Part shown: one piece after another, positions 27,339 to 41,842 of the stretch
Layout of the letters: every line of letters begins with the position of its first letter
Numbering within the stretch: position 1 is the stretch's first letter
DNA from: Mycobacterium stomatepiae
Lineage (GTDB): Bacteria > Actinomycetota > Actinomycetes > Mycobacteriales > Mycobacteriaceae
DNA: 64,000 nt
Assembly: GCF_010731715.1 (NCBI RefSeq)
Contig: NZ_AP022587.1
Span: 4,216,001 to 4,280,000 of the forward strand
Direction of reading: 5' to 3'
The notes under the pieces: generated by a model
Told to the model about the DNA's origin: nothing
What the model saw: only the letters and a program-made list of their open reading frames with translations
The model's database searches: none
Position numbers and translations under genes: made by a program

Positions 27339-28515
27339 GGGTGTGCGAGTGCTCGACCTCGCGACGTTGGCGGCCGCCCCGCTGGTCGCGACATACCTGG
27401 GCGAGTTCGGCGCCGACGTGATCAAGGTCGAAGACCCTCGGCACGGCGATCCGATCCGCGGATGGGGCAATCAGCGCGAGGACGTCGGGCTGATGTGGAA
27501 GTCCTTGTCGCGCAACAAGCGAGCGATCACGCTGGACCTGCGCTGCGCAGAAGGACAGGCGATGGTGCGTCGGCTGGTCGAGCACGCCGACGTCGCGATC
27601 TTCAACACCCGGCCGCAGACGTTGCGCAAATGGGGCCTCGATTACGAGAACCTTCGGATGGTCAACGACAAGATCGTGATGCTGCACATCACCGGATACG
27701 GGCTGACCGGACCGAAGAGTGAACGCCCGGGCTTCGGCACGCTCGGCGAGGCGATGAGCGGCTTCGCGCACATCACCGGGCAGGCCGGCGGCCCGCCCAC
27801 GCTGCCGCCGTTCATGTTGGCCGACGGCGTCGCCTCGTTGAACGCCACCTACGCGGTCATGATGGCGCTGTACCACCGCGACGTGCACGGTGCGCCGGGG
27901 CAACTGATCGACGTCAACCTGATCGACCCGCTGTCGCGCCTGCTCGAGCAGACGCTACTGGGCTATGACCAACTGGGGCTGGTGCCCGAGCGAGCCGGCA
28001 ACCGCTGGGATATCTCGGCTCCGCGCAACACCTATCGCACCGCGGACGGACGATGGCTGGCGATGTCCGGCAGCTCACCTGCGCTGGCGCTAAGGGTGTT
28101 TCGCGCAATCGGCCGAGACGACCTGCTGTCCGACCCCGACTTCTCCGACCCTCGGCGGCGGTTGGCCCGGGCCCGTGAGGTCGACACTGTGGCCGCGGAT
28201 TGGGTTGCAACGAAGACCCTTTCGGAGGCGATGCAGACCTTCGAAGCCCACGAGGTTGCCGCGGCCCCCGTCTATGACATCCGCGATCTGGTCGCTGACG
28301 AGCAGCTGGCACATCGCGGGGTGTTCATCTCGGTCGAGGACGACCAGCTCGGAGCGATGACGGTGCAGGCCCCCGTGCCGCGCTTCTCGTCGGCATCCGG
28401 GACGGTCCGCCACCTTGGACCCGGCCTCGGTGAGCACAACAGCGAAGTCTACGGCGAGCTACTCGGCTTGACTCCTAACGAGATTGACGATCTGCACGCC
28501 CGCGGCGTGTTGTGA
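27325..28515 (+). CDS. Class III (CaiB/BaiF family) CoA-transferase
   Basis: About 396 residues. The N-terminal LEGVRVLDLATLAAAPLVATYLGEFGADVIKVE is the standard family opening. The catalytic Asp is expected in the segment after GFGTLGEAMSGFAHITG. GAPGQLIDVNLIDPLSRLLEQ is also typical. It moves CoA between a donor thioester and an organic acid. The following gene is a malyl-CoA-lyase-like protein, so the acid may be a C4-C5 dicarboxylate or its methyl derivative. The start is ATG 27325 (ATG 27331 also possible), overlapping the end of the broken LLM gene. Confidence 0.87.
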   Translation: MQMLEGVRVLDLATLAAAPLVATYLGEFGADVIKVEDPRHGDPIRGWGNQREDVGLMWKSLSRNKRAITLDLRCAEGQAMVRRLVEHADVAIFNTRPQTLRKWGLDYENLRMVNDKIVMLHITGYGLTGPKSERPGFGTLGEAMSGFAHITGQAGGPPTLPPFMLADGVASLNATYAVMMALYHRDVHGAPGQLIDVNLIDPLSRLLEQTLLGYDQLGLVPERAGNRWDISAPRNTYRTADGRWLAMSGSSPALALRVFRAIGRDDLLSDPDFSDPRRRLARAREVDTVAADWVATKTLSEAMQTFEAHEVAAAPVYDIRDLVADEQLAHRGVFISVEDDQLGAMTVQAPVPRFSSASGTVRHLGPGLGEHNSEVYGELLGLTPNEIDDLHARGVL

Positions 28516-28534
28516 CAGAAGGAAATTCTTGCCG

Positions 28535-29442
28535 GTGACTGGTCTGCTTCGTCGTTCCGAACTCGCGGTACCCGCGAGTAATGACAACATGTTCGAGAAG
28601 GCCGCCAGCTGCGGCGCCGATCTGGTGTTGCTCGACCTCGAGGACGCCGTCCCCCCGGCATTCAAGGTGCAATCTCGCGCCAAGGCGATCACCGCACTCA
28701 ATGACATCGACTGGGGACGCACCGCACGCGCCATCCGGATCAACGGCCTGGACACCAGTGGTGTCACGACGACGTCATCGACGTCGTCACCAAAGCCGGG
28801 GAGAACCTCGACACCGTCATCATTCCGAAAGCCCGTACGGCCCGCGATGTGTGGTGGGTGGACGTGCTGCTCACCCAACTCGAGTCGAAAATTTGCCTGA
28901 ACAACCGGATTCGCCTCGAGGTACTGATCGAAGAAGTGGAAGGCCTCGCCAACGCGGAGGAGATCGCGGCCGCCAGCCCTCGCCTGGATGCGTTGATCTT
29001 CGGGGTCGGCGACTTCTCGCTATCCCAGGGTGCGCGGGTGGACACCAACTTCGTCCCGCTCGGCGAATATCCCGGCGAATTTTGGGCATATGCGCGCAAC
29101 AAGGTGATCGTCGCGGCGCGTATCGCCGGCATCGACGCGATCGACGCTCCCTATCCCGACTACCGCGACCTGTCGGGTTACGAGCGCGACGCGCGGCGGG
29201 CGTCCCTGCTCGGCTACAGCGGCAAGTGGGCCATCCACCCCGACCAGGTACCCGTCGCCAACGGCGTCTACGCGCCGACCCCCGATGAGATCGCGCGCGC
29301 CGAAGCCAATGTCGCCGCTTACCGGGAGGCCGAGGCAAAGGGCCGTGGCGCGGTCGGAGTCAACGGCGTGCTGGTCGACGCTGCCCACGTGAAGCAGGCG
29401 GAGCAGACGCTGGCACGTGCCGCGTTGATCAACGACAACTAG
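28535..29442 (+). pseudogene. HpcH/HpaI (CitE-like, malyl-CoA lyase type) gene with one-base frameshift
   Basis: The first 73 codons (VPASNDNMFEKAASCGADLV, LDLEDAVPP, RINGLDT) and the remainder (DDVIDVVTKAGENLDTVIIPKA ... GKWAIHPDQVPVANGVYAPT) are in different frames. Restoring one C near 28756 (ACC-CAG-TGG-TGT-CAC) joins them. The joined protein of about 302 residues closely follows the L-malyl-CoA/beta-methylmalyl-CoA lyase pattern, with acidic metal ligands in the LDLED region and IEEVEGLAN. Start GTG 28535, after AAGGAAA. Either a decayed gene or a one-base consensus error. Confidence 0.82.
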
Positions 29443-30766: not shown

Positions 30767-31768
30767 ATGTCCTCTTTAATCGAGTCGGAAAATGAGGCCA
30801 CCGAGGGTGTGGTCGAGGGTGATGTAGCCACCGAGGGTGATGTAGCCACCGACGGTGATGTAGCCACCGAGGGCGATGTAGCCGCTGTGGGTGTGGTCGA
30901 CGGTGACGCAGCCGCTGGGGATGTGGTCGATGGTGAGGTAGCCGCTGGGGATGTGTTTGACGGTGGCGCGACTGTTGAGGCTGTCGCGACCGCAGATCAC
31001 ATGATCGACAGCGACGCGGCGCCTATTGGGGCGAACAGCGAAGGTGTGCAGGCGAATACACTAACCACGTTCCCGCTGAAGCAGCGGCAGGAACCCCAGA
31101 GAGCTGCGGAAAGGACCGCAGAGCTCTCCGCGAGTCAGCTGATGGCACGCCAACGCGGCGACCGCCTACAACAACAGGTGGCAAGACTGTCACTTGTCCG
31201 CACCACGCGGATGATGGCTGTCGCGATTACGATTCTGATAGCGACGGCGAGCTTTATCCTCTCGTTCGCATCCTTGGGCGATCTGGCGGCGCGCACCGCG
31301 TACCCGGGGCGGTTGTCGTGGCTCTGGCCCGTCATCGTCGATGGTGGGATCATCCTCGCAACGATGGCGCTGGTCGCGTTCTCCGCATACCCCCAGCAGC
31401 GCGGCAGTCGGCGGTACTTCTGGGTGGTGCTTGGCGTGGGCGCCCTGGTCAGTGTCAGCGGTAACGCGGTCCATGCCATGATTCCTAACTCTGGAATGCC
31501 GAAATCAGCGCTGGGACCGTGGTTTGATGCCGCGATCGCATGCGTGCCGCCGATCGCACTCGTCGGAGCTACGCATGCGCTGTCCATCCTATGGAGATTC
31601 ATTCCGTACGAAGCGCTTGACGAGCCTGACGATTTCGCCGAACCCAGCCTCGCTCAACCCCAACCCACTGAACAGATCGAATCCTGGAGCAACAGCGGCT
31701 CGTCGCCGATCCAAGAGCGCGGACTCGTGGGTGCTCAATTGACTCCGGGGCCAAGCGGCGGTTGGTAG
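30767..31768 (+). CDS. DUF2637 membrane protein with acidic six-residue repeats
   Basis: Residues 1-75 are an acidic tail of repeated G-D-V-A-T-E-like hexads encoded by an 18-nt tandem repeat. Residues about 140-285 hold four hydrophobic helices typical of DUF2637: ITILIATASFILSFASLGDLA, then LSWLWPVIVDGGIILATMAL, FWVVLGVGALVSVSGNAVHA and a fourth helix ending SILWRFIPY. DUF2637 proteins occur on actinobacterial plasmids and integrated elements as well as chromosomes. The C-terminus may be cut short: removing one G near 31747-31750 would extend the frame to 31967 with a Pro-rich tail. Confidence 0.75.
   Translation: MSSLIESENEATEGVVEGDVATEGDVATDGDVATEGDVAAVGVVDGDAAAGDVVDGEVAAGDVFDGGATVEAVATADHMIDSDAAPIGANSEGVQANTLTTFPLKQRQEPQRAAERTAELSASQLMARQRGDRLQQQVARLSLVRTTRMMAVAITILIATASFILSFASLGDLAARTAYPGRLSWLWPVIVDGGIILATMALVAFSAYPQQRGSRRYFWVVLGVGALVSVSGNAVHAMIPNSGMPKSALGPWFDAAIACVPPIALVGATHALSILWRFIPYEALDEPDDFAEPSLAQPQPTEQIESWSNSGSSPIQERGLVGAQLTPGPSGGW
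30800..30960 (+). repeat. 18-nt tandem repeats inside the DUF2637 gene
   Basis: Units of GGTGATGTAGCCACCGAG, perfect or nearly so about three to four times, then diverging into GGTGATGTGGTCGATGG-like copies. Each unit encodes Gly-Asp-Val-Ala-Thr-Glu or a variant, so copy number changes would keep the frame. Confidence 0.8.
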
Positions 31769-32322: not shown

Positions 32323-33591
32323 ATGCCTCGATTTCCCAAGCCGTCGGAGGGAAGCTGGACACAGCATTACCCCGAACTGGGCACCGCGCCGGTGTCCTAC
32401 GAGGACTCAATCAGCCCGCGGATCCACGACCTGGAGCGGGACGCGATATTCAAACGCGCGTGGCTGAATGTCGGCCGCGTCGAGCAGGTTCCGCGTAAGG
32501 GCAGCTACTTCACCAAAGAGCTGAAGGTCGTCAACACCTCAATCATCCTGGTGCGCACGGGTTCTGGCGAGGTCAAGGCGTATCACAACATCTGCCGCCA
32601 TCGCGGCAACAAGCTGGTGTGGAACGACATGCCGCTCGAGGAAACCCGCGGTGTGTGCCGACAGTTCACCTGCAAGTACCACGCCTGGCGTTACGACCTG
32701 GACGGCAACCTGACCTTCGTCCAGCAGGAGGAGGAGTTCTTCGACCTCGATAAGAGCCGCTACGGGCTGGTGTCGGTGCATTGCGAGGTTTGGGAAGGCT
32801 TCATCTTCGTCAACTTCGCCAAGCAGCCCGAGCAGTCGCTGCGGGACTTTTTGGGGCCGATGGTGACGGGGCTGGAGGGCTACCCCTTCGATCGAATGAC
32901 GTCGAGGTGGGCTTACCGATCGGAGGTGAAAGCGAACTGGAAGCTGTACATGGACGCGTTCCAGGAGTTCTATCACGCCCCGGTGCTGCACGCGAACCAG
33001 TCGCCGACCGCGTACTCAAAAGCAGCTGCCGAGGCAGGTTTTGAGGCTCCGTATTACCGCCTGGACGGCCCGCACCGACTGGTGAGCACGTCGGGCGTTC
33101 GGGCATGGGAGATGGCCGCGGAGATGCGTAAGCCGATGGAGGACATCTGCCAGAGCGGGTTGTTCGGCCCCTGGGACAAGCCGGACTTGGGCGACATGCC
33201 GCCCGGACTGAATCCCGCGAAATGTGAACCGTGGGGCCTCGATTCGTTCCAGCTCTTCCCCAACTTCGTCGTCCTATTCTGGGGGCAGGGCTGGTATCTG
33301 ACCTACCACTACTGGCCGACCGCCTACAACAGCCATATCTTCGAGGGGACGCTGTATTTTCCGAAACCCCGCACCCCGCGGGACCGGGTGGCCCAGGAAC
33401 TGGCGGCGGTGACGTTCAAGGAGTTCGGCCTACAGGACGCGAATACGTTGGAAGCGACGCAGTCGATGATCGAATCCCAGGTGCTCGACCGCTTCCTGCT
33501 CTGCGACCAGGAGATCCTGATTCGACACCTGCACAAGGAGACCGCGGCCTGGATCGAGGATTACCGCCGCACCAGCACGGCGGGAGTATGA
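32323..33591 (+). CDS. Rieske ring-hydroxylating oxygenase alpha subunit, copy 1
   Basis: Product of 422 residues. Rieske ligands are C91, H93, C117 and H120 (CRHRGN ... CKYHAW; the usual Gly after the last His is Ala). Mononuclear iron ligands are H218 and H223 in EFYHAPVLH, and D211 is the bridging Asp. Such enzymes hydroxylate or dihydroxylate aromatic or cyclic substrates with electrons from a ferredoxin. The start is ATG at 32323 after AGGAG. Its stop overlaps the next ATG (ATGA). It is paralogous to the copy at 36388 and aligns with it without gaps through the first 223 residues. Confidence 0.88.
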   Translation: MPRFPKPSEGSWTQHYPELGTAPVSYEDSISPRIHDLERDAIFKRAWLNVGRVEQVPRKGSYFTKELKVVNTSIILVRTGSGEVKAYHNICRHRGNKLVWNDMPLEETRGVCRQFTCKYHAWRYDLDGNLTFVQQEEEFFDLDKSRYGLVSVHCEVWEGFIFVNFAKQPEQSLRDFLGPMVTGLEGYPFDRMTSRWAYRSEVKANWKLYMDAFQEFYHAPVLHANQSPTAYSKAAAEAGFEAPYYRLDGPHRLVSTSGVRAWEMAAEMRKPMEDICQSGLFGPWDKPDLGDMPPGLNPAKCEPWGLDSFQLFPNFVVLFWGQGWYLTYHYWPTAYNSHIFEGTLYFPKPRTPRDRVAQELAAVTFKEFGLQDANTLEATQSMIESQVLDRFLLCDQEILIRHLHKETAAWIEDYRRTSTAGV

Positions 33592-33926
33592 CGACGATGT
33601 CTGGTTTGCTGCCAACCGAATTCGCCGACCTCGAGGCGTTCGCGCAGTGGTGTCTGCCCACCGAACCGGAGCGTTACGCCAAGAGGCTGGCCAGCTCGAT
33701 GACCGAGATGAAGGCGTTCTACGACGCGATCGTCCCGCGCGCCGAGGAAGCGCTGACCTACTGCGACAAGTTCACGCTCGACGACCTGCCCGACGATGTC
33801 CTCAACCTGATGCATCTGCTGTATTCGATGATCATGGTGTCGTTTCCGGTGGAGTGCTGGAAGCAGCCACGCGTGCCCGACTCCGGGGCCGCCACGCTGG
33901 ACTGTGTGTCCGAGCCCGTCCCGTGA
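33588..33926 (+). CDS. Small helical protein paired with Rieske copy 1 (unknown function)
   Basis: I do not recognise this 112-residue protein. It opens LLPTEFADLEAFAQWCLPTEPERYAKR, then SSMTEMKAFYDAIVPRAEEALTYCDKFTLDDLPDDVLNLMHLLYSMIMV, and ends in a variable tail finishing EPVP. All-helical and acidic, with two conserved Cys. It is not the cone-shaped beta subunit of known oxygenases (usually about 160-180 residues). Translation is coupled to the oxygenase by an ATGA overlap. A paralogue sits in the same position after copy 2, so a subunit or accessory role for the oxygenase is likely. Confidence 0.8.
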   Translation: MTTMSGLLPTEFADLEAFAQWCLPTEPERYAKRLASSMTEMKAFYDAIVPRAEEALTYCDKFTLDDLPDDVLNLMHLLYSMIMVSFPVECWKQPRVPDSGAATLDCVSEPVP

Positions 33927-34780
33927 CGACAACCCTGCGGGCGGCCCGCTGGGCTGACGTCGACACCGGTCAGATCCACTCGCCGGCAGTCGTGCTGATC
34001 GACGGCAACCGCATCACCGCGATCAATCCCGAAGGGCCGGGGCCGGATTCGGCAAGCGTCATCGACCTCGGCGATGTCACGCTGTTGCCGGGCTTGATGG
34101 ACATGGAACTCAACCTGCTCATCGGCGGCCCGGGTGGACCCGACGGCTTGCCCTCCCAGATGCACGGCGTGCAAGACGACCCCGCCTACCGGACATTGCG
34201 TGGCGCCGTCAACGCGCGCACCACGCTGGAGGCCGGGTTCACCACCGTGCGCAACCTTGGGCTGATGGTCAAGACCGGTGGTTATCTGCTGGACGTAGCG
34301 CTGCAGCGCGCCATCGACCAGGGCTGGCACACCGGTCCGCGCATCTATCCCGCCGGGCACGCCGTCACACCCTACGGCGGACATCTCGATCCCACGGTGT
34401 TCCAGCGGTTGGCGCCGGGCGTCATGCCGTTGTCGGTCGCCGAGGGCATCGCCAACGGCGTGCCCGACGTTATCGCCTGTGTTCGCTACCAGATTCGGCA
34501 CGGCGCAAAGCTGATCAAGGTGTCGGCATCCGGCGGCGTCATGTCGCACAGCACCGCGCCGGGCTGGACCGCGGCATGACCCCGATGCAAGCCATCAAAG
34601 CCGCGACGGTCGTCGCGGCAGAACTCATCGAGGCCGACCACGAGCTGGGTCGGCTGGCGCCCGGCTACCTCGCCGACATCATCGCGGTTGCCCGGAGATC
34701 CCTCACGCGACATCGCCGCCACACTTGACGTTTACTTTGTGATGAAGGACGGCCAGATCTACAAGACGTCGACCGAGTAG
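33923..34780 (+). pseudogene. Amidohydrolase-family gene with internal deletion and frameshift
   Basis: The start (GTG 33923, overlapping the previous stop as GTGA) encodes the usual beta-sandwich and LLPGLMDMELNLLIGGPG, then LEAGFTTVRNLG and KLIKVSASGGVMSHSTAPG. The central 130-150 residues that should follow, with the metal-binding His and Asp, are absent. The text jumps to GMTPMQAIKAATVVAAEL. After ADIIAVA an extra C near 34691 shifts the frame; removing it gives GDPSRDIAATLDVYFVMKDG to the TAG at 34780. The normal HxH motif reads ELN. This is non-functional as written. Confidence 0.85.
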
Positions 34781-34792
34781 ACCGGAGCGGGC

Positions 34793-35248
34793 ATGGAACT
34801 CACCGAAAACATCTTGTGGCTACTCAAGCAGGCCTTCTACTTCTCGCTGACCACCGTGAACGACGCGATCAGTACGCACGGTGTGAGCACGGCCCAGATC
34901 GGTGTGCTGCGTCAGCTCTCCAACGAGCCCGGGTTATCCGGTGCCGAGCTCGCTCGGCGCCTGCTGATCAGCCCGCAAGGGGTGCAGCTGGCTCTCACCG
35001 CGCTGGAGCGGCGCGGCCTTGTCGAACGCAAACAAGACCCTCAGCACAAGCGCATTTTGAACGCCTACCTGACCGATCAGGGCCGCGATGTCGTGGCCGA
35101 GGTGCTCAGCGACGCCATCGCCGCGCACGAGAAGGTGTTCGGCGTGCTCAGCACCGACGAGCAGGAGACGCTGCGCGAATTGCTGGGTCGGGTGGTGGAA
35201 AAGGGCACCGGGCACGAGCTCACCGAGCGCAACATCTCCAGTACTTGA
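34793..35248 (+). CDS. MarR-family transcriptional regulator
   Basis: Product of 151 residues with a MarR winged helix: SGAELARRLLISPQGVQLALTALERRGLVERKQDP (about residues 50-85), and dimerisation helices at both ends. Start ATG 34793, 12 nt after the broken amidohydrolase. Two AGTACTTG boxes follow: one overlaps its own 3' end, the other lies before the ferredoxin gene. It probably controls the ferredoxin/SDR/Rieske copy 2 operon and perhaps its own. MarR proteins of this type commonly sense phenolic compounds. Confidence 0.88.
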   Translation: MELTENILWLLKQAFYFSLTTVNDAISTHGVSTAQIGVLRQLSNEPGLSGAELARRLLISPQGVQLALTALERRGLVERKQDPQHKRILNAYLTDQGRDVVAEVLSDAIAAHEKVFGVLSTDEQETLRELLGRVVEKGTGHELTERNISST

Positions 35249-35267
35249 GATTAATAGCAAGTACTTG
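35239..35267. promoter_or_regulatory. Two AGTACTTG boxes, candidate MarR operator
   Basis: AGTACTTGA at 35240-35248 and AAGTACTTGA at 35259-35268, with starts 20 bp apart (two DNA turns). The second lies in the perfect 10-bp palindrome CAAGTACTTG (35258-35267), 13 bp before the ferredoxin start. Spacing and position suit a dimeric MarR repressor. Confidence 0.6.
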
Positions 35268-35280
35268 ATACTCTGCCTTC

Positions 35281-35607
35281 ATGCAGGTCTCCCGGGCGCC
35301 GTCGTATGCCGGCCCTGCCGACGCAGGAGTCGCCACCGAAAAGGTGACGATCGAGCTGGATCGGTCCACCACCACGGTGGCCTACTCGGCGGGGGATACC
35401 CTGCTGCAGACCGCGCGGATGGCGGGACTGTCTCCGCCGTCGTCCTGCGAAGTCGGCTCGTGCGGAACATGTATGGCCCGGCTGACCGAGGGATGCGCCC
35501 GGATGCTCAACAACGATGCGCTTGAAGACGACGAGGTGCAAGAGGGTTGGGTGCTAACGTGTCAGGCTCTGCCGACGAGCCCGACGGTGCGGGTGGTCTA
35601 CGAATGA
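35281..35607 (+). CDS. Plant-type [2Fe-2S] ferredoxin
   Basis: Product of 108 residues with cluster ligands C56, C61, C64 and C94 (CEVGSCGTC ... LTC), the spacing of chloroplast-type ferredoxins and of the C-terminal domain of KshB-like reductases. No FAD/NAD domain is attached, so a separate reductase must supply electrons. Between two Rieske oxygenase genes, it is the obvious electron donor to one or both. Its stop overlaps the SDR start (ATGA, 35604-35607). Confidence 0.9.
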   Translation: MQVSRAPSYAGPADAGVATEKVTIELDRSTTTVAYSAGDTLLQTARMAGLSPPSSCEVGSCGTCMARLTEGCARMLNNDALEDDEVQEGWVLTCQALPTSPTVRVVYE

Positions 35608-36347
35608 GCAGGGTCGCGGTGGTGACCGGAGGCGCCTCGGGTATGGGTGAGGCGACCTGTCACGAGCTGGGCCGGCGCGGCCTGCACGTCGCCGTCCTCG
35701 ATGTCAATCAGCAAGCAGCACAACGCGTTACCGAAGATCTGCGTGCGGCCGGGACCACGGCCATCGGTATCGGCGCCGACGTCACCGACCGGGTCGCCGT
35801 CGAGCAGGCTTTCGCCAAGGTTCGCAGCGAGTTGGGCTCGGTGTCGGTGCTGGTGACGAGCGCGGGCATGTTCGGATTCTCCCCGTTCGCCGAGATCACC
35901 CCGCAGTCCTGGTCGAAGATCGTCGACGTCAACTTGACCGGCACTTTTCACTGCTGCCAAGTCGCGCTGCCGGACATGGTCACCGCGAAATGGGGCAGGA
36001 TCGTTATGATTTCGTCGTCCAGCGCGCAGCGGGGCTCGCCGTTTGCCGCGCACTACGCGGCATCCAAGGGTGCGGTCATCACCCTCACCAAGTCGCTGGC
36101 CCGCGAGTACGCCCCACACGGGATCACCGTGAACAACATCCCGCCCTCGGGCATCGAAACCCCGATGCAGCACCAGGCGCAGGCCGCGGGATACCTGAAA
36201 TCCAACGAGGAGATCGCCGGCAATATCCCGCTGGGGCATTTGGGGACCGGGGCCGACATTGCCGCGGCGGTCGGGTTCCTGGCCTCCGATGAGGCCGGCT
36301 TCATCACCGGCCAGGTGCTCGGCGTCAACGGCGGAGCGGTGATGTGA
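35604..36347 (+). CDS. Short-chain dehydrogenase/reductase
   Basis: Classical SDR, 247 residues: VTGGASGMGEA cofactor loop, TSAGMFGF in place of NNAG, catalytic Ser in MISSSSAQRG, and YAASKGAV. The C-terminus is the standard GFITGQVLGVNGG. Coupled to the ferredoxin by a 4-nt overlap and 40 nt before Rieske copy 2. It could be the dihydrodiol or alcohol dehydrogenase that follows the oxygenase in the pathway. Confidence 0.88.
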   Translation: MSRVAVVTGGASGMGEATCHELGRRGLHVAVLDVNQQAAQRVTEDLRAAGTTAIGIGADVTDRVAVEQAFAKVRSELGSVSVLVTSAGMFGFSPFAEITPQSWSKIVDVNLTGTFHCCQVALPDMVTAKWGRIVMISSSSAQRGSPFAAHYAASKGAVITLTKSLAREYAPHGITVNNIPPSGIETPMQHQAQAAGYLKSNEEIAGNIPLGHLGTGADIAAAVGFLASDEAGFITGQVLGVNGGAVM

Positions 36348-36387
36348 TGTCGTGGATCTTAAAGCGTTCAGGCACAAGGAGGTTCGG

Positions 36388-37650
36388 ATGACGCGCGAGG
36401 GTAGGCCCATTGAGGGCTCCTGGACCGAGCACTATCCGGAATTGGGCACCGGCGATATCTCTTTCGCCGACTCCACCTCGAAGGAGTTCTTCGAGGCCGA
36501 ACGCGAAGCCGTCTTCAAACGCGCCTGGCTCAACGTGGCCCGGGTCGAGGAGCTACCGCGGATCGGGAGCTACGTCACCAAGGAAATCGAGGTTGCCCGG
36601 GTTTCGGTCATCCTGGTCAAGGGACGCGACGAACAGATTCGCGCCTTTTACAATGTCTGCCGCCACCGCGGAAACAAGCTGGTGTGGGACGACTTTACCA
36701 ACGATGCGACCCGCGGGACGTCTCGCCAGTTCACCTGCAAGTACCACGGCTGGCGTTACGATCTTGACGGCGCGCTGAAATTCGTCCAGCAGGAATCGGA
36801 GTTCTTCGACCTCGACATCGCCGACTACGGGTTGAGCCCGGTGCACTGCGACATCTGGAATGGCTTCATTTTCATCAACTTCGATCGCGAGCCGCGGCAG
36901 AGTCTGCGCGAATTCCTGGGCCCGATGATCGCCGGGCTGGACGGCTACCCCTTCGACAAACTGACCGAGCGCTACGAGTGGGTCGCGCACAACAACAGCA
37001 ACTGGAAGATCTTCGCCGACGCGTTCCAGGAGTACTACCACGTGCCGTCGCTGCACTCACAACAGGTGCCGCCGGAGGTGCGTGACCCCAAAGCCGGATT
37101 CACTTGCGGCCATTTCCAACTCGACGGCCCGCACCGGCTGGTGTCGACGGCGGGGCGACGGCGCTGGCTGCTGCCGCCGGAGTACATGTATCCGATCGAG
37201 CGGGCCACCCAGAGTGGACTCGTCGGCCCCTGGCGCACCCCGGACATCGGCGAACTACCCGCCGGGCTCAACCCCGGTGGCATTGAGCCCTGGGGAATCA
37301 GCAACTTCCAGATCTTCCCCAACACCGAGATACTGATCTACGGTGGCTGGTATCTGCTCTACCGGTACTGGCCCACCTCCCACAACACCCACCGGTTCGA
37401 GGCCTACACCTACTTCAGCCCCGCGCGCAGTGTGCGCGAGCGCGTCGAACACGAAGTCGCCGCGGTGGTGCTCAAGGATTTCGCGCTGCAGGACGCGGGC
37501 ATGCTCGGCGGCACGCAGGCCGCGCTAGAGTACGGCGTCGTCGACGAGTTCCCGCTCAACGACCAGGAGATCCTGGTACGTCATCTGCACAAGACCGCCG
37601 TGGAGTGGGTCGAGGCTTACCGCCGCGAAAAAGCCCCGGTCGGAGTGTGA
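36388..37650 (+). CDS. Rieske ring-hydroxylating oxygenase alpha subunit, copy 2
   Basis: Product of 420 residues. Rieske ligands C91, H93, C117 and H120 (CRHRGN ... CKYHGW) and mononuclear iron ligands H218 and H223 with D211 (DAFQEYYHVPSLH) are at the same positions as in copy 1. An in-frame GTG at 36352 exists, but ATG 36388 has a near-perfect AAGGAGG and gives the same N-terminus as copy 1. It is followed 2 nt later by a paralogue of the small helical protein. The two alpha subunits may form different homo- or hetero-oligomers. Confidence 0.9.
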   Translation: MTREGRPIEGSWTEHYPELGTGDISFADSTSKEFFEAEREAVFKRAWLNVARVEELPRIGSYVTKEIEVARVSVILVKGRDEQIRAFYNVCRHRGNKLVWDDFTNDATRGTSRQFTCKYHGWRYDLDGALKFVQQESEFFDLDIADYGLSPVHCDIWNGFIFINFDREPRQSLREFLGPMIAGLDGYPFDKLTERYEWVAHNNSNWKIFADAFQEYYHVPSLHSQQVPPEVRDPKAGFTCGHFQLDGPHRLVSTAGRRRWLLPPEYMYPIERATQSGLVGPWRTPDIGELPAGLNPGGIEPWGISNFQIFPNTEILIYGGWYLLYRYWPTSHNTHRFEAYTYFSPARSVRERVEHEVAAVVLKDFALQDAGMLGGTQAALEYGVVDEFPLNDQEILVRHLHKTAVEWVEAYRREKAPVGV

Positions 37651-37652
37651 CC

Positions 37653-37988
37653 ATGCCGGATACCTTGCTACCCACCGGATTCGCCGAGCTGGAGGGCTAC
37701 GCCCAAATCTGGTGCCTGGCCACCGAAACCGAACGCTGGAACGCGCGGATGGCCAGCAGTATGGCCGACATGCACGCGTTCCATGACGCATTCTTCCCGC
37801 GCCTCGAAGAGGCCATCGAGTACTGCGACAAGTTCACGCTCAAGGACTTGCCCGACGATGCGGTCAACCTGCTGCACATGATCTATTCCCTGGTCATGGT
37901 CGCCATGGCCGTCGAGGTCATGCATCAGCCCGCCCCGACGGATGCGGCCGACGCGGTGATGATCCGCACCGACGAACCCGTGCCCTGA
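37653..37988 (+). CDS. Small helical protein paired with Rieske copy 2 (unknown function)
   Basis: Product of 111 residues, paralogous to the protein at 33588: LLPTGFAELEGYAQIWCLATETERWNAR, then SSMADMHAFHDAFFPRLEEAIEYCDKFTLKDLPDDAVNLLHMIYSLVMV and the shared EPVP end. The most conserved part is the YCDKFTL-DLPDD segment. One Cys pairs with Trp in both. It starts 2 nt after the oxygenase stop. I know of no function; subunit, chaperone or substrate-delivery roles fit equally well. Confidence 0.8.
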   Translation: MPDTLLPTGFAELEGYAQIWCLATETERWNARMASSMADMHAFHDAFFPRLEEAIEYCDKFTLKDLPDDAVNLLHMIYSLVMVAMAVEVMHQPAPTDAADAVMIRTDEPVP

Positions 37989-38020: not shown

Positions 38021-38865
38021 ATGAGTCTGCTTACCATCACCAAGCTCAGCGGCTCGGTCGGCGCCGAGGTTACCGGCCTAGACCCCGCCCACCTGGCTGC
38101 CGACGACCCGGTCGGCGAGGCCATCCTGGATGCGTTGGGGGACAACGGCGTTCTGGTGTTTCCCGGGCTGCACCTCGACCCCGAAACCCAGGTGGAGTTC
38201 TGCCACCGCCTCGGCGCCATCGACTACTCCTCGGACGGCCATCACTCGGTCGCCGGCATCTACCCGGTCACGCTGGACAAGTCGAAGAACTCCTCGGCGG
38301 CCTACCTCAGGGGGACGTTCGACTGGCACATCGACGGCTGCACGCCCACCGGCGACGACTACCCGCAAAAGGCCACCGTCCTGTCCGCCAAGCAGGTCGC
38401 CGAGCGCGGCGGCGAAACCGAATTCGCCTCCTCCTACGCGGCGCACGACGCGCTGACCGACGACGAAAAAGAACGGTACAGCTCGTTGCGAGTGGTGCAC
38501 TCGCTGGAGGCCTCCCAGCGGCGCATCACTCCAAACCCGCTCCGGAGCAGTTGGCGCAGTGGCGATCTCGCCGCACGCACGAACACCCGCTGGTGTGGAC
38601 GCATCGCAGCGGCCGTAAGTCGTTGGTGCTGGGGGCTTCCGCCGACTACGTGGTGGGCATGGACCTCGGCGAAGGCCGCGCCCTGCTGGCCGAGCTGCTC
38701 GACCGCGCAACGGTGCCCGACAAGGTCTACAGCCACAGCTGGTCGGTCGGCGACACCGTCATCTGGGACAACCGAGGCGTGCTGCATCGGGCCGCCCCCT
38801 ATGCGCCGGACTCGGAGCGTCTGATGCTGCGCACGACCGTGCTCGGTGATGAGCCGATCCAGTAG
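38021..38865 (+). pseudogene. TauD/TfdA-family alpha-ketoglutarate-dependent dioxygenase, one-base frameshift
   Basis: First frame: MSLLTITKLSGSVGAEVTGLDP, then the iron pair H-x-D in TFDWHIDGCTP, to VHSLEASQRR. The second frame continues HEHPLVWTHRSGRKSLVLG and ends with the third ligand and the ketoglutarate Arg in VLHRAAPYAPDSERLMLRTTV. Adding one C near 38523-38525 (CGG-CGC-CAT-CAC) joins them into about 281 residues. Such enzymes hydroxylate or cleave sulfonates, aryloxy acids or sulfate esters; the substrate here is unknown. All catalytic residues are present once the frame is restored. Confidence 0.83.
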
Positions 38866-39960: not shown

Positions 39961-40377
39961 TTATGGGGTCGAGGGGGTCGACAGGAGTTCGGCGAGCAAG
40001 GCCTCGACGCGGCGGGCGATGTCGTCGCGGATGGCACGCACGGTTTCTAGCGATTGGCCAGCGGGATCGGGCAGTGTCCAGTTGCGGTAAGACACCCCGG
40101 GAAAGTAGGGACAGGTGTCACCACAGCCCATGGTGATCACGACGTCGCTGGACTGCACCGCCTCGCCGGTCAGCAGCTTGGGAAGCTGGGCGGCGATGTC
40201 GATGCCGAGTTCGGCCATCGCCGTGACCACCGCGGGGTTGAGGCGATCAGCGGGTTCGGATCCCGCGGAACGGACTTCGATCCGGTCGCCAGCCAGATCC
40301 ATCAGCAGCGCCGCGGCCATTTGAGAGCGACCGGCATTGTGCACGCACACAAATAAGACGCTGGGGTGGTCAGCCAT
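39961..40377 (-). CDS. arsC: Arsenate reductase ArsC (LMW phosphatase fold)
   Basis: Product of 138 residues. The catalytic loop is CVHNAGRS (C11, R17), and the two resolving Cys C85 and C89 lie in [14 protein letters not shown]. This is the thiol-cascade type coupled to thioredoxin or, in mycobacteria, mycothiol/mycoredoxin. It reduces arsenate to arsenite for export. Its ATG overlaps the end of the permease gene by 8 nt (40370-40377). In M. tuberculosis Rv2643 the two are, as I recall, one fused protein, so this is the unfused form. Confidence 0.92.
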
Positions 40378-41480
40378 CGCGGGTGCTCCTGCTCGAATCT
40401 GCCGTGGCGCGAAAACCGAAGAGCCGGTTGCGAAGTGCCAGGGAGAGGTAGACGAGCCCCACGAGGACGGGGACTTCGATCAAGGGCCCGACCACGCCGG
40501 CCAGAGCTTGCCCGGACGCGATACCGTAGGTGCCGATCGCCACCGCGATGGCCAATTCGAAGTTGTTGCCCGCCGCGGTGAACGCCAAGGTCGTGGTGCG
40601 CGCGTAGCCGAGCCGCAGTGCCAATCCGAGGGCGTACCCCCCCAGCCCACATGACCGCGAAGTAGGCCAACAGCGGTATGGCGATGCGGGCGACGTCCCA
40701 TGGCCGAGAAGTGATCTGGTGGCCCTGCAGGGCGAACAGAATAACGATCGTGAACAACAACCCGTACAGAGCCCACGGTCCGATGCGCGGAAGGAACCGG
40801 GTCTCGTACCAGTGGCGGCCCTTGGCGCGTTCACCCAGTCGACGGGACAGGTACCCCGCCAGCAGCGGAATCCCCAGAAAGATCAGCACGGATTTTGCGA
40901 TTTCCCATGGGGAGACGGCGATGCCGGTTTGCGGCAGACCCAGCCAGCCGGGCAGCACCGACAGATAGAACCAGCCCAGCACGGCGAACATCACGACCTG
41001 GAAGATCGAGTTGAGAGCGACCAGGACAGCTGCGGCTTCGCGGTCCCCGCAGGCCAAGTCGTTCCAGATGATGACCATGGCGATGCAGCGGGCCAGCCCG
41101 ACAATGATCAGACCGGTGCGATATTCGGGAAGATCGGCGAGTAGCAGCCATGCCAGGGTGAACATCACTGCCGGGCCAATCAGCCAATTGAGTACCAGCG
41201 AGGAAGCCATGAGTTTGCGGTCGCTGGCGACCTCGCCGAGCTGGTCATAGCGCACCTTGGCCAAAACCGGGTACATCATCACCAGCAGGCCCAGCGCGAT
41301 CGGCAGGGAAACGCCGTCGAATTCAACAGTGCTCAGCGCCGATCCCAAACCAGGTACCACCCGGCCGAGTAGCAGACCGGTGGCCATGGCCACCCCGATC
41401 CACAGCGGAAGCATCCGGCCCAGGGTCGAAAGCCGGGCGACTGTTCGCGCGGCTGCGGGCTCTGAGTGGGTGTGTGTCAC
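40370..41480 (-). pseudogene. ACR3-type arsenite efflux permease with +1 frameshift in a C7 run
   Basis: Ten or so hydrophobic helices with ACR3 marks: PLWIGVAMATGLLLGRVVPG, the Cys-containing GLARCIAMVIIWNDLACGD, and [20 protein letters not shown]. The protein reads in frame to YFAVMWAGG, then breaks at seven C's (40637-40643). Six C's would continue into [19 protein letters not shown] and end RDG at 40370. Length when joined is about 370 residues. A homopolymer of this length is a classic place for a sequencing slip, so the gene may be intact in the organism. Start GTG 41480. Confidence 0.85.
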
Positions 41481-41842
41481 GGGCGGCGCTGCGTTGTCGT
41501 CATGGCCATATCGTCGATCGTCAAAGCCGACGAAAGGTGTCGCAAGGCTTCGGGAATCACCCAGTAATACACCCAGGTTCCCCGCCGCTCGCAGTCGATC
41601 AAGCCGGCTGAACGCAACAGTTTGAGGTGATGGGAGATCGTTGGCTGAGAGACGTCGAACGTCGCTGAAATTTCACAGACGCAAGCCTCCCCGCCGGGAT
41701 GGCTCGCGATCAGGCTTAACAATCGCAGGCGCACCGGATCGCCGATCGCTTTGAACATTGTCGCCAGGGTTGCGGCCTGGGAATCGTTCAGCGCGCTCGC
41801 ACCCAAGCGCGGGCAACATCCCGACAGAGCTTGATTCGACAT
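41477..41842 (-). CDS. arsR: ArsR-family arsenic-responsive repressor
   Basis: Product of 121 residues with the winged helix FDVSQPTISHHLKLLRSAGLIDCERRGTWVYY. The As(III) site is C54-x-C56 in GEACVCEIS, the ELCVC-type motif at the start of the third helix; an extra Cys pair sits at 9-10. It represses the downstream acr3-arsC-cadI genes until arsenite binds. Its stop overlaps the permease GTG (GTGA). An inverted repeat overlaps its start codon. Confidence 0.92.
   Translation of the reverse strand: MSNQALSGCCPRLGASALNDSQAATLATMFKAIGDPVRLRLLSLIASHPGGEACVCEISATFDVSQPTISHHLKLLRSAGLIDCERRGTWVYYWVIPEALRHLSSALTIDDMAMTTTQRRP

Follow-up and report, generated by a model that had tools for sequence, protein, structure and literature searches.

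As a rule, Rieske oxygenases are classed as either alpha3 or alpha3beta3 enzymes. The locus analyzed here lies in a 64,000-nucleotide stretch of Mycobacterium stomatepiae, referred to below as the window (contig NZ_AP022587.1, positions 4,216,001 to 4,280,000; the host genome is a single contig of 6.21 Mb), and encodes two paralogous Rieske oxygenase alpha subunits, RO1 and RO2, each followed by a small helical protein (SP1 and SP2, jointly SP). Among described systems, the alpha3beta3 dioxygenase IadD/IadE likewise combines an alpha subunit carrying Rieske and catalytic domains with a small partner from the same operon, as set out in PMC10374108; in contrast, SP is modelled as all-helical and matches no beta-subunit profile, and IadE is ruled out as an SP relative by its described beta-sheet fold. 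The alpha subunits themselves show a likeness to CntA and GbcA. In the PDB, RO1 is matched best by a carnitine monooxygenase chain (E 6.2e-23), and GbcA is the best NCBIfam match of RO1 and RO2; their scores against NF058607, 130.6 and 118.4 bits, fall far short of the 670-bit cut-off for this glycine-betaine monooxygenase. The glutamate at the bridging position is presumably shared with CntA, but 13 of the 14 outgroup alphas, which have no SP, carry it as well. To our knowledge, no small partner is known for CntA or GbcA.

SP is a real, unnamed and widespread family associated with a single clade of Rieske alphas, and is probably a working part of this branch that has been missed. The sequence-only reading had described two alpha/small-protein pairs together with a ferredoxin, a short-chain dehydrogenase/reductase (SDR) and a MarR gene; all of these are found at the places claimed, and the two pairs are as follows (lengths in amino acids, aa; dN/dS, ratio of nonsynonymous to synonymous substitution rates; pLDDT, predicted local distance difference test):

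32323 to 33591, plus strand: RO1, Rieske oxygenase alpha subunit, 422 aa (PF00355 E 5.6e-15, PF00848 E 1.4e-34; ligands intact)
33588 to 33926, plus strand: SP1, helical partner protein, 112 aa (AlphaFold2 four-helix model, pLDDT 84.8; dN/dS 0.05-0.18)
36388 to 37650, plus strand: RO2, Rieske oxygenase alpha subunit, 420 aa (PF00848 E 6.5e-49, PF00355 E 7.7e-15)
37653 to 37988, plus strand: SP2, helical partner protein, 111 aa (57% identity to SP1; dN/dS 0.15-0.21)

The reported spacing is also correct: the SP1 start overlaps the RO1 end by 4 nucleotides (nt; ATGA), and 2 nt separate RO2 from SP2. For RO2, the ATG at 36388, read from the sequence as preceded by AAGGAGG, was preferred over the GTG at 36352. 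RO1 and RO2 share 56% identity over 416 columns and SP1 and SP2 57% over 107. Both alphas contain the PF00355 and PF00848 domains, all above the curated cut-offs, and in their alignment C91, H93, C117, H120, H218, H223 and D372, as well as E215 at the bridging position, are identical, in agreement with the earlier observation that the two paralogues carry their ligands at the same positions. Both thus display the CxH...CxxH pattern of cluster ligands and a 2-His-1-Asp iron site, which we take to be the roles of these residues, with E215 as the bridging one. Against six relatives each, dN/dS is 0.05-0.21 for SP1 and SP2 and 0.05-0.22 for the alphas, indicating similar purifying selection; since the values of the small proteins are as low as those of the alphas, their open reading frames (ORFs) are not chance occurrences.

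The distribution of the family was followed in DNA stretches labelled with L and a number. From GTDB species genomes, 306 of 410 candidate stretches encode an SP1 relative and the best 80 were kept; these nearest loci belong to Mycobacterium, Mycolicibacterium or other Mycobacteriaceae. An SP profile match occurs in 38 of the 296 genomes of the class; the one in genome G194 of this set (E 9.7e-4), with no alpha in the surrounding 3 kb or so, is probably due to chance and was left out of the counts. On plasmids, SP relatives appear in 21 records at 29-46% identity in the first search and in a few more later, with alpha-, beta- and gammaproteobacteria and Rhodococcus as hosts; part of these records were inspected (13 stretches found by the first search, 8 by later ones), and SP is a "hypothetical protein" wherever it is annotated there. 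The range of the family goes well past the duplication seen here and includes other actinobacterial families as well as proteobacterial plasmids.

When alpha and SP profiles were run by script over the 80 mycobacterial loci, 13 plasmid stretches and 86 stretches from the class and from the own genome, a same-strand alpha ORF was found within 75 nt of 264 out of 265 SP ORFs (141 from the mycobacterial loci, 110 from the class and own-genome stretches and 14 from the plasmids). The alpha precedes SP in 260 of the adjacent cases and follows it in 4, and the gap between the two genes never exceeds 24 nt in the 80 loci, 75 nt in the class stretches and 60 nt on the plasmids. The sequence-only reading had named co-occurrence with Rieske genes as its check, and homologues lying mostly away from them as its refutation. 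This refutation did not materialize: including the further plasmid stretches, where 5 of 8 SPs lie beside an alpha, 269 of 273 SPs adjoin a Rieske alpha, a count that does not represent independent events, given the close relatedness of the 80 loci and of many class genomes. The plasmid cases weigh more, because the surrounding genes differ there: in the stretches inspected the alpha-SP link is kept while the flanking genes change. The 4 exceptions are L255, in which 26 aa from the end of an alpha (65% identity to the L096 alpha) lie directly upstream of SP, and L091, L260 and L261, which share the same SP (WP_007682395.1). In the latter three, from plasmids of lindane degraders, SP is located behind linC and an EthD gene, between IS6100 copies, and the alpha is absent; L091 and L260 have a shortened alpha past IS6100 on the opposite strand.

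The association is equally apparent from the side of the alphas. The genome of M. stomatepiae encodes three SPs, each adjoining a Rieske alpha, and among its 22 other Rieske places, the 21 inspected with about 1.5 kb on each side all lack SP. In the 296 class genomes, the alpha profile gave 117 places at 418 bits or more, followed by a drop to 281 (an end-of-contig fragment) and 237 (hand count); SP, matched by eye, is present at 108 of the 117, with at most six candidates scored per genome and hence at least four SP-bearing places missing. None of six lower-scoring alphas inspected has SP. Mapped onto a tree comprising 147 alphas, the presence or absence of SP requires 2 changes, compared with a mean of 21.7 after shuffling; the tree was built by a quick method, mostly from rows chosen for having SP, and carries a long-branch warning for the plasmid and outgroup rows.

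Profile searches place the small proteins in one unnamed family, as had been proposed. Neither SP1 and SP2 nor 15 diverse family members match a Pfam or NCBIfam model at its cut-off, the few matches at E<=1 being scattered and unrelated; SP1 has none at E<=1 in either database, and SP2 has a single sub-cut-off Pfam match (NDUS4, E 0.2). The PDB sequence search returned no meaningful match (best E 0.034 for SP1 and 0.59 for the family profile). The AlphaFold2 model of SP1, obtained with 24 sequences (predicted template modelling score 0.76), consists of helices only, spanning residues 10-21, 26-35, 38-59 and 69-91, with a loose C-terminal tail, and its Foldseek comparison with the PDB gave 34 matches at E<=10, the best at E 3.9 and none at E<=0.001. 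A confident match to a known unrelated family, which the sequence-only reading would have counted against itself, was therefore found in neither Pfam, NCBIfam nor the PDB. Across 267 sequences (effective number 37), W21, R29, R33 and L74 are fixed and P9, F44, F12, L15, Y45, L8 and E89 nearly so, while no cysteine or histidine is fixed. The previously noted YCDKFTL-DLPDD core holds within the mycobacterial branch and fails as a family-wide core, the fixed residues being different ones. Both SP1 and SP2 are acidic, with 18-19 acidic and 6-8 basic residues. Searches of the open-licence PMC literature listed no paper describing a partner of this kind in Rieske systems.

Regarding the beta subunit, the earlier impression that the small proteins do not resemble it is borne out: none of the 15 family members matches PF00866 at E<=1. 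SP was consequently rejected as a ring-hydroxylating beta subunit, since it shares the adjacency to an alpha, but lacks the profile match and, in the model, the NTF2-like beta-sheet fold. A by-eye comparison of positions in 37 genomes placed no PF00866 match closer than 5 kb to an SP. PF00866 matches occur elsewhere in 32 of them (25 above the cut-off); the one nearest to an SP on the same contig is a sub-cut-off match about 8 kb away.

Each SP also evolves with its own alpha. The distance matrices of alpha and SP correlate with r = 0.885 over 122 pairs, and none of 1000 permutations reached this value (largest 0.229); as genome relatedness alone also raises the correlation, the swap test within genomes is sharper. 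There, all 26 two-pair stretches favor the true pairing over the swapped one (means of 0.86 and 0.47), which indicates that the pair duplicated and diverged as a unit, as the sequence-only reading had suggested. The RO1 and RO2 branches of the alpha tree each contain more than one actinobacterial family, so the duplication predates the genus. Two SPs are present in the DNA examined at 61 of the 80 mycobacterial loci; among the 19 single-SP loci, 6 have less than 1.4 kb of DNA beyond SP and the others 4.3-6 kb, and RO2 runs off the end in several.

Taken together, the family, its adjacency and co-evolution with the alphas, the intact ligands in the window, the missing beta gene nearby and the helical model form the observed basis on which the role of SP can be discussed. 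It is very likely that SP is a dedicated partner of the Rieske alpha, and rather likely that it is a physical subunit of the oxygenase component; we infer the binding, the stoichiometry and the electron route, as well as the arrangement of RO1 and RO2 in separate or mixed oligomers. In the proposed scheme, SP would be a dedicated small helical subunit, which could be termed gamma, in the place where other Rieske systems have beta. NAD(P)H would deliver electrons to a reductase, whose gene adjoins that of the ferredoxin in some relatives; from there they would pass to the common [2Fe-2S] ferredoxin, to the Rieske cluster and then to the mononuclear iron of the neighboring alpha, where O2 would be activated. 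SP would bind alpha, most likely keeping the oligomer and its active site in working shape, with each SP fitting its own alpha, and the SDR would act on the oxygenase product. If correct, this would constitute a third, widespread Rieske make-up with a helical partner and would affect both the annotation and the expression of these genes; speculatively, a clade alpha cloned without its neighboring SP may lack a needed part.

Several points weigh against a subunit role. The binding of SP to alpha is deduced indirectly, the model of the alpha is poor (pLDDT 51.7), and no solved structural relative of SP was found. A dedicated chaperone or an effector would likewise be consistent with the adjacency and the co-evolution. 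Moreover, 9 of the 117 clade alphas have no SP within about 3 kb even at E<1. They form a single branch (Shimodaira-Hasegawa-like approximate likelihood ratio test, 100) from one actinobacterial family, nested in the SP clade, for which one gain followed by one loss would be the simplest history. These nine indicate that SP is not strictly required, or is replaced, or is supplied from elsewhere, and they weaken the earlier claim that the partner is needed for function. The SP-less alphas (L240-L248) retain all ligands, and an SDR-like ORF, identified by eye, follows in L240, L245 and L246. Three alpha columns are conserved with SP and lost in the SP-less branch; a binding site for SP is not claimed from them, since the sister SP branch keeps the residue only at column 280. 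A further difficulty comes from four plasmid clusters in which a SnoaL-like gene (PF13577, SnoaL_4) lies downstream of the alpha-SP pair, directly after SP on L093 and L095 and after SP and two cupin genes on L096 and L102:

L093, 5345 to 5836: SnoaL_4 gene
L095, 6359 to 6865: SnoaL_4 gene
L096, 6068 to 6643: SnoaL_4 gene
L102, 6047 to 6562: SnoaL_4 gene

All four clusters include a ferredoxin-type gene, and none of the four SnoaL-like proteins matches PF00866. These proteins may have a beta-like fold and may be a further oxygenase component; they could even act as a beta-like subunit, in which case the role of SP there would be a different one.

A tentative extension of the subunit reading is that RO1-SP1 and RO2-SP2 assemble into a single mixed alpha/alpha' oxygenase that contains two distinct helical subunits. 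The RO2 branch comprises 28 rows. Of the 27 that lie outside the window, 25 are accompanied by a second pair on the same stretch, which is offered in favor of a mixed enzyme; the remaining two, which are likewise the only ones without a second pair under a narrower 18-row definition of the branch, lie near contig starts. Within the 80 loci, the full ligand set is present in 79 of 79 RO1-type and 61 of 63 RO2-type alphas. The two deviating genes, together with two from class genomes, carry both H93R and H120C:

L049, 10032 to 11288: RO2-type alpha without Rieske histidines
L069, 10031 to 11290: RO2-type alpha without Rieske histidines
L140, 3905 to 5164: RO2-type alpha without Rieske histidines
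L166, 10819 to 12018: RO2-type alpha without Rieske histidines

All four retain E215, H218, H223 and D372 as well as their own SP, and each locus has an SP-linked second alpha; RO1 is intact in the alignments of L140 and L166, as are all RO1-type alphas of the 80 loci. RO2 of the window has normal ligands. L049, L069 and L140 have in common the motif CRRRGH ... C-x-H-C, with dN/dS of 0.08-0.10 among the three, which points to strong purifying selection and argues against simple decay. L166 differs: its pattern is CPRC ... CKRC, its Rieske domain has a deletion, and its loss of the histidines may be a separate event. Judged from these substitutions, a normal Rieske cluster could not pass electrons to such proteins; either their iron is fed by RO1 in a mixed oligomer, or another cofactor occupies the site, or their role is non-catalytic, and a conversion of the Rieske site to another metal site is possible. 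A mixed oligomer is hinted at because the iron site and SP are kept beside an intact RO1. If it exists, Rieske oxygenases would gain in SP their first known helical subunit or even coupling protein.

Less likely is a dedicated assembly chaperone, which would bind newly made alpha, aid its folding or the loading of iron or the [2Fe-2S] cluster, and be absent from the final enzyme. Such a helper would account for the tight gene coupling, seen in the overlap of SP1 with RO1, and for the tracking of each SP with its own alpha, and the loss of a helper would explain the SP-less branch more readily than the loss of a core subunit. The family-wide residues, however, are W21, R29, R33 and L74 rather than cysteines or histidines, so there is no sign of direct metal handling, and the retention of SP2 beside RO2 proteins lacking both Rieske histidines argues against a role limited to loading the Rieske cluster.

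An effector or coupling protein is a weaker proposal and, on present evidence, improbable. By analogy with the effector proteins MmoB and DmpM of diiron monooxygenases, which are likewise small proteins dedicated to an oxygenase, SP would bind transiently and gate electron transfer or substrate access. Its size, its acidity and its loss in one branch are compatible with this. The oxygenase class is different, however, and SP has no match to an effector family in Pfam; no diiron-monooxygenase effector family appears among the matches at E<=1, and the profile, model and Foldseek results speak against any known effector or known fold. We also know of no effector protein for a Rieske oxygenase.

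It is very unlikely that SP is an enzyme or binding protein with its own place in the pathway and merely travels with the alpha gene: co-occurrence alone would permit it and nothing specific favors it, while the alpha-SP link stays as plasmid flanking genes vary and the paralogue-specific co-evolution holds in every stretch compared (26 of 26). A remote, shrunken relative of the PF00866 beta subunit, suggested by the shared genomic position, can practically be dismissed given the absence of a profile match, the four-helix model in place of a beta-sheet fold and the lack of any PDB fold match.

In the 80 mycobacterial loci, the two pairs enclose and adjoin a recurring set of genes in the order RO1-SP1-amidohydrolase-MarR-(reductase)-ferredoxin-SDR-RO2-SP2-TauD. 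Its members in the window, besides the two pairs, are:

33923 to 34579, plus strand: amidohydrolase remnant, 218 aa (NF051886 E 1e-41, first half of the profile)
34793 to 35248, plus strand: MarR-family regulator, 151 aa (PF12802 E 1.1e-15)
35281 to 35607, plus strand: [2Fe-2S] ferredoxin, 108 aa (PF00111 E 3.3e-16)
35604 to 36347, plus strand: SDR dehydrogenase, 247 aa (PF13561 E 1.2e-60)
38021 to 38865, plus strand: TauD-family dioxygenase gene in two frames, end of the conserved operon (PF02668 in each frame searched separately)

The ferredoxin is the only one found between the two pairs. An FNR-like reductase gene lies between MarR and ferredoxin in 26 of the 69 relatives showing both; in the window, the 32 nt between them leave no room for it.

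According to the annotation of the plasmid SP clusters, L093 and L262 contain a styrene/indole monooxygenase, L256 a 2,5-dihydroxypyridine dioxygenase and L102 a protein of the xanthine-dehydrogenase type, so that several of them look like N-heteroaromatic catabolism. By gene context, the family therefore touches catabolic clusters resembling indole/skatole (L093, L262) and dihydroxypyridine (L256) degradation. In the skatole/indole cluster of Acinetobacter piscicola p38 (PMC11434297), the Rieske alpha gene1684 is listed as upregulated by indole and by skatole, and gene1684, gene1687, gene1688 and gene1690 agree with the gene order of L093 and L262. By gene numbering, gene1685 should be SP; it is not mentioned in the main text of that paper. 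For the Rhodococcus skatole clusters, PMC13101512 does not state the product of skaZ. IacB, a small protein encoded in an auxin cluster, was considered as a candidate relative of SP from its description.

The amidohydrolase remnant between SP1 and MarR was absent from the sequence-only reading. It is about half length (218 aa, compared with mostly 411-423 aa in relatives), and a further remnant was recognized by eye downstream, within 33923-34780. The third alpha-SP pair of the genome (L219) is likewise adjoined by an amidohydrolase. The TauD-family gene, a 281-aa open frame in many relatives, is broken across two frames in the window; thus two genes of the conserved operon are damaged there, and both oxygenase pairs are undamaged. 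An HpcH/HpaI-aldolase-like gene at 28484-29442 also appears to extend over two frames, with a profile match to the second half only and the first half assigned by eye, and some of the frame breaks may therefore be sequencing errors. Elsewhere in the window, a DUF2637 protein (30767-31768) carries a long N-terminal stretch of imperfect GDVATEGDVA-type repeats. On the minus strand, an ArsR-family regulator and an SBF-family transporter are encoded at 39961-41842, with an adjacent phosphatase/arsenate-reductase-like ORF recognized by eye; these genes are perhaps an arsenic resistance operon.

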